Made by a program: the position numbers and the translations under genes. This document shows, one piece after another, positions 61,350 to 63,858 of a stretch of DNA of 64,000 nt. Numbering within the stretch: the stretch's first letter is position 1; every line of letters starts with the position of its first letter. Origin of the DNA: Arthrobacter sp. Y-9. Its GTDB lineage: Bacteria; Actinomycetota; Actinomycetes; Actinomycetales; Micrococcaceae. The notes beneath the pieces are model-generated. The model saw nothing but the letters and a program-made list of their open reading frames with translations, was not told the origin of the DNA and made no database searches. Location: contig NZ_CP121463.1 in NCBI RefSeq assembly GCF_029690065.1, forward strand, positions 2,356,001-2,420,000, given 5' to 3'.

Positions 61350-61385
61350 GCGGCGCGTTCCTTCGGGGACGCGCCGCTGTTTTAC
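61350..61385 (+). terminator. terminator of the DoxX-aroA-rsgA-hisN transcript
   Basis: A 12-bp stem (GCGGCGCGTTCC / GGGACGCGCCGC, one G-U) closed by a TTCG tetraloop, then TGTTTTAC. A textbook intrinsic terminator. Confidence 0.9.
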
Positions 61386-61395
61386 TCTCGTAATC

Positions 61396-61511
61396 AGGTC
61401 ACGAGTGCCAGCGCTAAACCCCGGTTTGCTGGCCGGCAACCCTCCAGACGCGGTGGGGTGCCCCGGGTGACGACCAGGCCGGCCACAGAAAGTGGTGCGG
61501 CAAGCGCGGCG
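61396..61511 (+). promoter_or_regulatory. SAM-IV-type riboswitch
   Basis: The segment contains the conserved SAM-aptamer order: GGTCACGAGTG, the P2 stem GCCAGC/GCTGGC with inner AAAC-CCCG-GTTT, GGCCGGCAACCCTCC, the GGTGGGGTGCCCCGGGTGA core and closing GACC. A CCAC-AGAAA-GTGG hairpin follows, as expected for the extra 3' helix of SAM-IV. Downstream a GCCCGC-CTGT-GCGGGC hairpin and CCCCTCC could mask the AGAGG of the next gene. Confidence 0.85.
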
Positions 61512-61551
61512 CCCGCCTGTGCGGGCCCCTCCACGATGCAGAGGTCTCAGC

Positions 61552-62961
61552 ATGTCCGTCAACACCCTTGCCCCCCGCTCCGCCGTCGCCGGAACCGGAC
61601 GCACCCACGCGCCGTCGCTGGCCGCCAATCCGTTCGCCGCGGTCACCGGCGCGGAGATCCAGGCCCCGCTCATCCAGGGCGGCACGGTCCGTTACGCCAA
61701 TCTCGACTACGGCGCCTCCGCCCCCGCGCTCAGCGTGGTCTCGGCCTACCTGAACGAGATCCTGCCGTACTACGCGAGCGTGCACCGCGGCGCCGGGTAC
61801 GCGTCGCAGATCAGCACCTCGGTGTACGAGAACGCCCGGGAGATCGTGCGCGACTTCGTGGGCGGACGCCCCGATGACCTGGTGATCTTCACGCGCAACA
61901 CCACCGATTCCCTGAACGTGCTGGCGGGCTGCCTGCCCCAGCGCCAGGGCGAACAGGCCGGTGACGTCCTCTATCTGGACATCGAGCACCACGCCAATCT
62001 TCTTCCCTGGCAGCGGGTCGGTCACCGGAGCCTCGTGGCGCGGGAGACCATCGCGGCCACCGTGGAGGCCCTTCGGGAGGAACTCGAAGCCGGCGGCGTC
62101 GCGCTCCTGGCCGTGACGGGCGCTTCCAATGTCACTGGTGAGATCCTGCCGATCGCCGAGCTCGCCGCCCTGGCGCACGAGTACGGCGCCCGGATCGTCG
62201 TGGACGCCGCCCAGCTGGCGCCGCACCGCCGGATCGACATCACCGCGCTCGACGTCGACTTCCTCGCCTTCTCCGGCCACAAGCTGTACGCGCCGTTCGG
62301 CGCCGGAGTCCTGGTGGGCCGCGCCGATTGGCTCGACGCCGGCACTCCCCACCTGCTCGGCGGCGGCGCCGTGCGGGAGGCCCGCCTCGACTCGGTCGTG
62401 TGGACCACCGGACCGGCCCGCCATGAGGGCGGCTCCCCCAACGTCCTCGGCGCGGCCACCCTCGCCCGGGCGACCCAGGTCCTGGTGTCCCTGGACCACG
62501 ACTCCTGGCAGCAGCACGAGGCGGACATCCGCCGCCACCTGGAGGACGGCCTCGCCGCCCTGGACGGCGTCACCGTGCACCGGATCTTCAGCGATTCCAC
62601 CGACTCGATCGGCGTGGTGAACTTCTCCGTCGAAGGTTACGACGCGGGCCTCGTCGCCGCGTACCTCTCCGCCGAGCACGGGGTGGGGCTCCGGGACGGC
62701 AAGTTCTGCGCCCACCCGCTGCTCAAGCGGCTGGGTCTGCCCGCCGGATCGCTCCGGGCCAGCTTCGGTCTGGGATCCCGGCTCGAGGACGCCGAGCGTC
62801 TCATCGAGGGGATCCGGCAGCTGCGCGAGCGCGGTCTCGGCTGGGACTACGTGGTCGACGCCGGACGCTGGGTCCCCGCGAACGATCAGCGCAGCTACCC
62901 GCACTGGGCGCCGAACACCCCCGGCACGGCGGGCGCCGCGCCCTGCACCACCACGGACTGA
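61552..62961 (+). CDS. class V aminotransferase, cysteine desulfurase (SufS/CsdA)-like
   Basis: A 469-residue PLP enzyme of the NifS/SufS group. PLP lysine in FSGHKLYAPFG, aspartate in VVDAAQLAPH, histidine segment LDIEHHANLLPW, and a cysteine loop DGKFCAHPLLKRL in the position of the SufS active cysteine. N-terminal 45 residues are variable. It is not next to suf genes; instead a SAM-IV riboswitch lies directly upstream, so it is turned off when SAM is high and should act in sulfur or methionine supply. ATG follows AGAGG. Confidence 0.85.
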   Translation: MSVNTLAPRSAVAGTGRTHAPSLAANPFAAVTGAEIQAPLIQGGTVRYANLDYGASAPALSVVSAYLNEILPYYASVHRGAGYASQISTSVYENAREIVRDFVGGRPDDLVIFTRNTTDSLNVLAGCLPQRQGEQAGDVLYLDIEHHANLLPWQRVGHRSLVARETIAATVEALREELEAGGVALLAVTGASNVTGEILPIAELAALAHEYGARIVVDAAQLAPHRRIDITALDVDFLAFSGHKLYAPFGAGVLVGRADWLDAGTPHLLGGGAVREARLDSVVWTTGPARHEGGSPNVLGAATLARATQVLVSLDHDSWQQHEADIRRHLEDGLAALDGVTVHRIFSDSTDSIGVVNFSVEGYDAGLVAAYLSAEHGVGLRDGKFCAHPLLKRLGLPAGSLRASFGLGSRLEDAERLIEGIRQLRERGLGWDYVVDAGRWVPANDQRSYPHWAPNTPGTAGAAPCTTTD

Positions 62962-63081: not shown

Positions 63082-63858
63082 ATGTCAGCCCGTCACGTGT
63101 CGCCGCCCGGTGGTCCCCGCATGGACACCACCACTCGCCGGGAGATGGGCCGCGCCTTCGAACAGGGCGGGGAGCACTACGCTCAGGTCCGGCCCTCCTA
63201 TCCGGCGGAGTCCGCTGCCTGGTGTGTGCCTGATGGCGCGCGATCGGCCGTGGACCTGGGAGCCGGCACCGGGAAGTACACCGCGCTGCTCGTGGATCTC
63301 GGCCTGGACGTGACGGCGGTGGAGCCCTCCGCCGACATGCTGGCCCAGCTGCATGCGGAGCTCCCCGGCGTCGCGACCGTTCAGGGAACGGCGGAGGCCA
63401 CCGGCCTTCCTGCGGAGAGCGCCGATCTGATCGCGGTGGCCCAGGCCTGGCACTGGTTCGATCCTCTCGCCGCGAGTGCGGAGGCCCTCCGGGTCCTGCG
63501 GCCGGGCGGGACGCTCGCGCTGATCTGGAACCAGCTGGACACGTCCGTCCCCTGGGTGCACCGGCTGTCCCGCATCATGCATGCCGGCGACGTCATCAAG
63601 CCGCACTTCGTCCCCGCCGTCGGGCCGGGCTTCGGCGACCTCCAGGCCGCGGTGATCCCGTGGCAGGACCGGGTGACGCCGGAGGATCTCCTGGAGCTGA
63701 CCAAATCCCGGAGCTACTACCTGCGCGCGTCCGTGCCCACACGGGAGAAGGTCCTCGCCAACCTCGAGTGGTACCTCTACGAACATCTCGGCCATCATCC
63801 CGGGGAGGTCCTCACCCTCCCCTACCGCTGCTACGCCTGGAAGACCACGCGGCACTGA
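63082..63858 (+). CDS. class I SAM-dependent methyltransferase
   Basis: A 258-residue methyltransferase of the Methyltransf_11/ubiE-like type. SAM-binding motif I is VDLGAGTGKYTALLVDLG, the acidic strand end VTAVEPSADM binds the ribose, and VAQAWHWFDPLAASAEALRVLRPGG is the post-motif region typical of this group. The substrate is unknown. ATG after AGGAG; it lies just after the SAM-regulated aminotransferase but a terminator separates them. Confidence 0.87.
   Translation: MSARHVSPPGGPRMDTTTRREMGRAFEQGGEHYAQVRPSYPAESAAWCVPDGARSAVDLGAGTGKYTALLVDLGLDVTAVEPSADMLAQLHAELPGVATVQGTAEATGLPAESADLIAVAQAWHWFDPLAASAEALRVLRPGGTLALIWNQLDTSVPWVHRLSRIMHAGDVIKPHFVPAVGPGFGDLQAAVIPWQDRVTPEDLLELTKSRSYYLRASVPTREKVLANLEWYLYEHLGHHPGEVLTLPYRCYAWKTTRH

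Follow-up and report, generated by a model that had tools for sequence, protein, structure and literature searches.

We propose that in Arthrobacter sp. Y-9 a SAM-IV riboswitch shuts off translation of an additional cysteine desulfurase of SufS fold, encoded by a stand-alone gene, and that this enzyme would free sulfur from cysteine when SAM is low. Taken as a whole, this reading is probable. The pairing of this riboswitch with this enzyme gene recurs over much of the Actinomycetes, and it is this breadth that is new, as the pairing itself is already in print for two Streptomyces. In the available text of the respective papers, SAM-IV precedes SLIV_26975, annotated as ‘cysteine desulfurase’, in S. 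lividans TK24 (PMC8079986), and in S. clavuligerus a premature transcript was recorded at the SAM-IV that precedes CRV15_21540, which encodes a PLP enzyme of the aminotransferase class V-fold type (PMC8269248). Both cases share with ours the position of the riboswitch before a cysteine desulfurase or class V-fold PLP gene; they differ in that, as far as that text extends, the enzyme itself was not studied there. We infer that the two genes are orthologous to that of the window (the whole stretch of 64,000 nucleotides that was analysed) from related genomes, the f21 group, rather than from those two loci. The features on which the argument rests are the following:

61350-61377, forward strand: terminator-like hairpin (12 pairs, 10 of them GC, with a T-rich tail; consensus match only)
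61397-61512, forward strand: SAM-IV riboswitch aptamer (Rfam RF00634, 108.3 bits, E 5.1e-19)
61508-61529, forward strand: putative antisequestor helix (61508-61509 with 61528-61529, 61511-61516 with 61521-61526; RNAfold of the leader)
61528-61544, forward strand: putative ribosome-binding-site sequestor (CCTC at 61528-61531 with GAGG at 61541-61544; complementarity)
61552-62961, forward strand: SufS-like class V PLP enzyme of 469 aa (K244, C386, C-terminal tail GTAGAAPCTTTD)
63082-63858, forward strand: class I SAM-dependent methyltransferase-like gene (Pfam PF08241), the next gene downstream

The original prediction had described a well-formed SAM-IV aptamer ahead of a gene that is not a classical methionine or SAM gene, and both statements are borne out. 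When the whole window was compared with Rfam 15 by cmscan, the RF00634 match covered model positions 1-116 of 116 and lay far above the gathering score of 38, a significant result by the covariance model; judged by this match, the aptamer is complete and the riboswitch itself is ordinary. Its class is also found before metX and metY in the same genome; its own target is not a classical methionine gene but a class V PLP enzyme gene (PF00266), whose ATG at 61552 lies 39 nt beyond the end of the aptamer. The terminator-like hairpin, of a kind expected 0.6 times in shuffles, sits between the riboswitch and an upstream gene that, from its sequence, we take to be inositol-monophosphatase-like. Because this hairpin precedes the riboswitch, the latter probably heads its own transcript.

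How general is the pairing? Among 99 relatives, 28 matches at E 1e-60 resolved into 27 family members and one SufS-like protein (L036, 213 bits), and 26 of the 27, our own included, have SAM-IV ahead of the gene, L033 being the one without it. A phylum sample of 396 genomes contained 26 matches above 500 bits, the next match listed scoring 279.8, and 22 of these 26 have SAM-IV before the gene. The best 80 of 585 named loci, with Arthrobacter, Pseudarthrobacter, Sinomonas, Rhodococcus, Nocardia, Frankia and Kineosporia among them, were scored with a model (R1) for which 28 SAM-IV sequences from relatives and our own genome had been combined; the riboswitch was found in 76 of the 80, at most about 220 nt ahead of the match. 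Finally, 36 of the 118 genomes of a class sample carry the gene, a count that includes the low-scoring G493 and G511 (348 bits) and a partial match in G570 (395 bits), and SAM-IV lies directly before it in 31, by comparison of coordinates by eye. The relatives, phylum, named-locus and class samples overlap. Loci at which no SAM-IV was found before the gene are L090, L097, L102 and L109, where no Rfam family reached its cut-off; L141 and L143; the f19 genomes G080 (= L033/L129) and G360 (= L128); and the class-sample genomes G493, G500 and G511. By title or taxonomy, the first four are presumably Microbacteriaceae.

None of eight paralogue controls (L007, L008, L009, L036 and L145-L148, that is, six SufS-like loci and two other class V homologues of our own genome) has SAM-IV before it. 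Any SAM-IV at all occurs in 31 of 36 class-sample genomes with the gene vs 29 of 82 without it (p 3e-7, kinship ignored). Approached from the side of the riboswitch, the best SAM-IV loci (30 returned, with our own L001 left out) have the enzyme gene downstream in 17 of 29 cases, metY in nine and neither in three.

Several observations arose alongside this survey. Two records, L073 (titled Sporosarcina beigongshangi) and L085 (an Acidobacteria MAG), hold a gene 73-74% identical to that of the window, with the riboswitch; they are probably mislabelled or misbinned assemblies. In one Nocardia-like genome a SAM-I riboswitch (L123:1068-1157, reverse strand) and the SAM-IV of the enzyme gene face in opposite directions, with about 165 nt between them. 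In the f97-family loci L195, L205 and L206, the ORFs that follow SAM-IV look alike and have about 170 codons each; that of L195 was compared with Pfam and had no match. Additionally, in 11 of 11 distinct f21 genomes (L131-L140 and L142), which are probably Streptomycetaceae, a conserved six-codon ORF follows SAM-IV, GTG-A[GA]C-[AC]AG-CGA-ATG-CGN-TAG (M[SN][KQ]RMR), 41-63 nt past the GCAAGCGCGG of the aptamer. Its final arginine codon varies at the wobble position, and it has a purine-rich ribosome-binding site, mostly GAGGGAG, within a strand able to pair upstream. The f21 riboswitch may gate a leader peptide; this ORF is absent from the table of leader peptides given for S. lividans (PMC8079986) in the part of that source available.

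What would the riboswitch do to the gene? The expression platform had been predicted to be translational, by pairing of a C-rich strand with the ribosome-binding region, and CCTC is indeed complementary to the GAGG that precedes the start codon. In the window this sequestor amounts to only 4 bp, and RNAfold of the leader returns the competing hairpin at 61508-61529 rather than the CCTC/GAGG pairing. This competing hairpin, the antisequestor, overlaps the 3' end of the aptamer and shares positions 61528-61529 with the sequestor. In relatives it is formed by the GG at the 3' end of the aptamer and the next bases with a downstream strand that mostly ends in UCC. Once leaders above 83 nt and identical ones had been set aside, 66 remained; 52 of these reached an antisequestor score of at least 11, vs 10% of dinucleotide shuffles. 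In an alignment of 45 Micrococcaceae leaders, 94.5% of its cells are standard pairs and 17 cells have changed on both sides, a value reached in none of 500 shuffles; when the antisequestor strand is shifted along the alignment, no more than 76% of cells are paired. The sequestor helix is paired in 86.5% of cells of the Micrococcaceae leader alignment, and between the CCTC strand and the ribosome-binding site of these leaders no covariation beyond shuffles was seen, as is expected where a ribosome-binding site is conserved, yet this is no proof of pairing. Complementarity to the ribosome-binding site taken alone is a weak test, as a score of at least 7 occurs in 36 of 66 leaders vs 37% of shuffles. 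The translational platform thus holds on sequence through its covarying antisequestor, and the CCTC/ribosome-binding-site pairing goes without covariation support.

On this basis we interpret the leader as a pair of mutually exclusive helices. At low SAM, the last two G's of the aptamer and the bases that follow would form the antisequestor and hold the CCUC strand, which would leave the GAGG ribosome-binding site free. With SAM bound, the two G's would remain part of the aptamer, pairing of the CCUC strand with GAGG would follow, and translation would stop. In this proposed switching step covariation supports one of the two helices. Alternatively, the riboswitch might act mainly by ending transcription rather than by hiding the ribosome-binding site, a scheme that we regard as unlikely: the premature transcription unit at the SAM-IV before the S. 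clavuligerus class V gene fits a shortened transcript better than purely translational control (PMC8269248, in the text available), but no run of five or more T's occurs in 76 leaders of the named loci, nor was a terminator-like site found between aptamer and gene in the window. Neither absence bears on a Rho-dependent variant of this scheme. Given the covarying antisequestor, the alternative pairing of the CCTC strand and the lack of five-T runs, a translational OFF switch fits the leaders best. A covarying antisequestor that overlaps the 3' end of the aptamer and competes with pairing of the ribosome-binding site is new here; no description of it was found in the available text of the SAM-IV literature searched, a set that does not include the discovery paper (Weinberg 2008).

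The enzyme itself had been predicted to be cysteine desulfurase-like, and in so far as sequence can tell the identification stands. Its PF00266 (Aminotran_5) score is 278.8 bits against a gathering score of 21.5, the nearest PDB sequences are cysteine desulfurases, mostly SufS, and the best NCBIfam model is SufS (TIGR01979). An AlphaFold2 model of the window protein, built with 36 relatives, has a mean pLDDT of 86.9, and the 50 PDB fold matches listed are cysteine desulfurases, mostly SufS, with TM values of 0.71-0.77 by query length; the top match is a SufS and a few of the 50 are titled selenocysteine lyase. The PLP lysine K244, the catalytic-type cysteine C386 and the arginines R381 and R402 are invariant across 23 aligned sequences that include our own SufS, E. 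coli SufS and CsdA. The natural reading of fold and residues is therefore probably cysteine desulfuration, in which the enzyme would move the sulfur of L-cysteine onto C386 as a persulfide and yield alanine.

The protein is related to, but distinct from, the type II enzymes SufS and CsdA (TIGR01979, TIGR03392), with which it shares the fold, the PLP lysine and the catalytic-type cysteine. A branch with support of 100/100 separates 40 family rows from 8 SufS/CsdA rows (only eight outgroup rows, root by midpoint), so that the family does not group with SufS and forms a clade of its own on a long branch. The family motif is RDG[KR]FCAH, where SufS has R-x-G-H-H-C-A, a difference at the two residues before the cysteine, and GHHCA has thus become G[KR]FCAH in most family rows. 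The residue before the cysteine is F in 125 of 126 rows, some of them duplicates, followed by CAH; the residue two before it is R in 84, K in 31, L in 9 and C in 1, a tally in which the pattern favoured K/R for part of the rows and twelve class loci gave no matching ORF. Because the enzyme scores 280.7 bits against the SufS cut-off of 475.1, its substrate is not assured. An alternative is a C-S lyase or related PLP enzyme, likewise repressed by SAM, whose substrate would be a different amino acid containing sulfur or selenium (selenocysteine, cystine, cysteine sulfinate or an S-substituted cysteine). It would accommodate both the altered motif and the scores, which for every NCBIfam model matched, SclA and EgtE among them, stay under the curated cut-off. 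We consider such an enzyme a real, if minority, possibility, against which speak the persulfide-type cysteine, PLP lysine and two arginines held in common with SufS and CsdA, and the desulfurase folds listed, a few of which are titled selenocysteine lyase. Cysteine desulfuration remains the preferred reading.

A different account of the same fold is that the enzyme is a second desulfurase for Fe-S clusters or thiocofactors, and that SAM control merely mirrors the demand of SAM-linked or Fe-S enzymes. The SufS fold would suit it, as would the tag ‘thiamine metabolism’ that the annotators of S. lividans gave to their gene, as seen in the available text (PMC8079986). We nevertheless rate it as quite improbable. 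In our own genome a SufS-like paralogue (38% identity) and two weaker homologues occur besides the enzyme, and each of the 26 phylum-sample genomes with a family member contains a further match of lower score at E 1e-60 or better, which we presume to be SufS. Moreover, 98 of 126 family rows have G where our own SufS has a histidine (VHAHDV; Y in E. coli SufS), a residue that would meet SufU. The literature search found no paper showing contact of a VHAHDV-type histidine with SufU; the G at this position is only a hint of an unusual sulfur acceptor.

The neighbourhood also argues against a dedicated Fe-S or thiocofactor role, and it upholds the prediction that the gene stands alone. We clustered ORFs of at least 90 aa from 113 loci of about 11-21 kb (L115 was left out of A4). 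The enzyme cluster comprised 109 loci under 19 of 21 clade labels. No neighbour cluster was found under more than 6 of the 21 labels; this bears on a suf operon or an adjacent SufU or SufE as far as partly annotated clusters of ORFs of at least 90 aa can show one. The methyltransferase-like cluster has 52 loci, in 49 of them at position +1 on the same strand; it is steady in Micrococcaceae only and among the 113 loci was not seen as a cluster outside this family. A role based on an operon was rejected: no neighbour recurs outside Micrococcaceae, and the next widest cluster takes in 6 of 21 labels at shifting positions. The riboswitch is the only companion found conserved between clades and, as no neighbour is so conserved, it is the main clue to the role of the enzyme.

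To which pathway does this clue point? The genome of Arthrobacter sp. Y-9 has four further SAM-IV sites:

before metY (NF005872, 771.3 bits), own genome
before metX (NF001209, 461.5 bits), own genome
before a DUF1737-domain ORF and then metZ (TIGR01325, 617.1 bits), L004:1501-3105
before a 100-aa ORF with function unassigned, L005:1187-1489, reverse strand (72.2 bits)

The last site was considered as control of an XRE/cupin regulator and dropped, because the regulator lies on the other strand and the 100-aa ORF follows the aptamer. Since the other sites include metX, metY and metZ, cysteine/methionine sulfur metabolism is the likeliest setting of the enzyme, as read from the sequences that share its control. 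The original prediction had named sulfur assimilation or methionine salvage; the first agrees with this setting, and methionine salvage is without specific support. In C. glutamicum, SAM-IV is located before cg1478, according to the available part of PMC3890552.

Within such a setting, the freed sulfur might feed homocysteine and methionine synthesis, so that the enzyme would be needed when SAM is low; this step is among the least certain of the model. Feeding MetY as a general role gains no support from co-occurrence in the class sample, where MetY accompanies the gene in 18 of 36 genomes and is present in 44 of the 82 that lack it (p 0.84). MetX occurs in the same 18 of 36 as MetY vs 45 of 82 without the gene, called at E 1e-40, as the model's own cut-off is reached in 0 of 118 genomes, our own metX included. 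Of the class-sample genomes that carry the gene, half thus show neither MetX nor MetY, and MetA (PF04204) was found in none of the 36. MetZ is present in 5 of 36 vs 12 of 82. Neither MetY nor MetZ is therefore a general partner, the former being no commoner with the gene than without it and the latter so rare. The cystathionine gamma-synthase model NF005871 has matches in 32 of 36 genomes with the gene vs 54 of 82 without it (p 0.012, uncorrected for relatedness or several tests), and because this model may cover gamma-lyases too we draw nothing firm from the enrichment.

The fate of the sulfur may be tied to the C-terminus. A cysteine lies within the last 12 residues of 107 of 129 members, with any residue allowed at the K/R position of the motif. 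L091, which has a frameshift, and 18 duplicate loci were dropped before counting. Micrococcaceae weigh heavily in the total (57 rows), which also takes in 6 of 9 f21 rows and one f22g68 row whose cysteine probably belongs to a different tail. By group, such a cysteine is present in 56 of 57 Micrococcaceae, 13 of 13 of the Rhodococcus group and 6 of 6 Nocardia, and in none of f105, f13, f15, f17, f19, f22g69 and f31. The eight SufS/CsdA controls lack it, and its presence in most members and absence from these controls is new here. Residues 459-469 fall under pLDDT 50, that is, the tail is disordered in the AlphaFold2 model. Sulfur might be released from C386 as sulfide or handed on, possibly via this tail and not SufU/SufE, a step that is again among the least certain. 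Extending the model, one may imagine a new desulfurase subfamily, actinobacteria-wide and SAM-IV-controlled, in which the flexible tail cysteine takes the C386 persulfide in place of SufE or SufU and supplies the methionine side; we put this forward tentatively and think it doubtful in full.

The family is set apart from SufS and CsdA by its long-branch clade, its scores below cut-off, the absence of any neighbour found conserved between clades, and its SAM-IV control. No study or reaction test of the enzyme was found in the literature searched, nor any mention of it in the available parts of PMC3766115, PMC12452182, PMC9232105 and PMC2864571; as far as that literature goes, it thus appears to be conserved in the SAM regulon of actinobacteria and uncharacterised. 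Specific and cheap predictions follow from the two helices that exclude each other and from the tail cysteine. Of the 89 SAM-IV matches listed in the 118 class genomes, 31 directly precede this one enzyme gene, and the pairing suggests a step that links cysteine with methionine in actinobacteria, including those genomes in which MetX, MetA and MetY were not detected.
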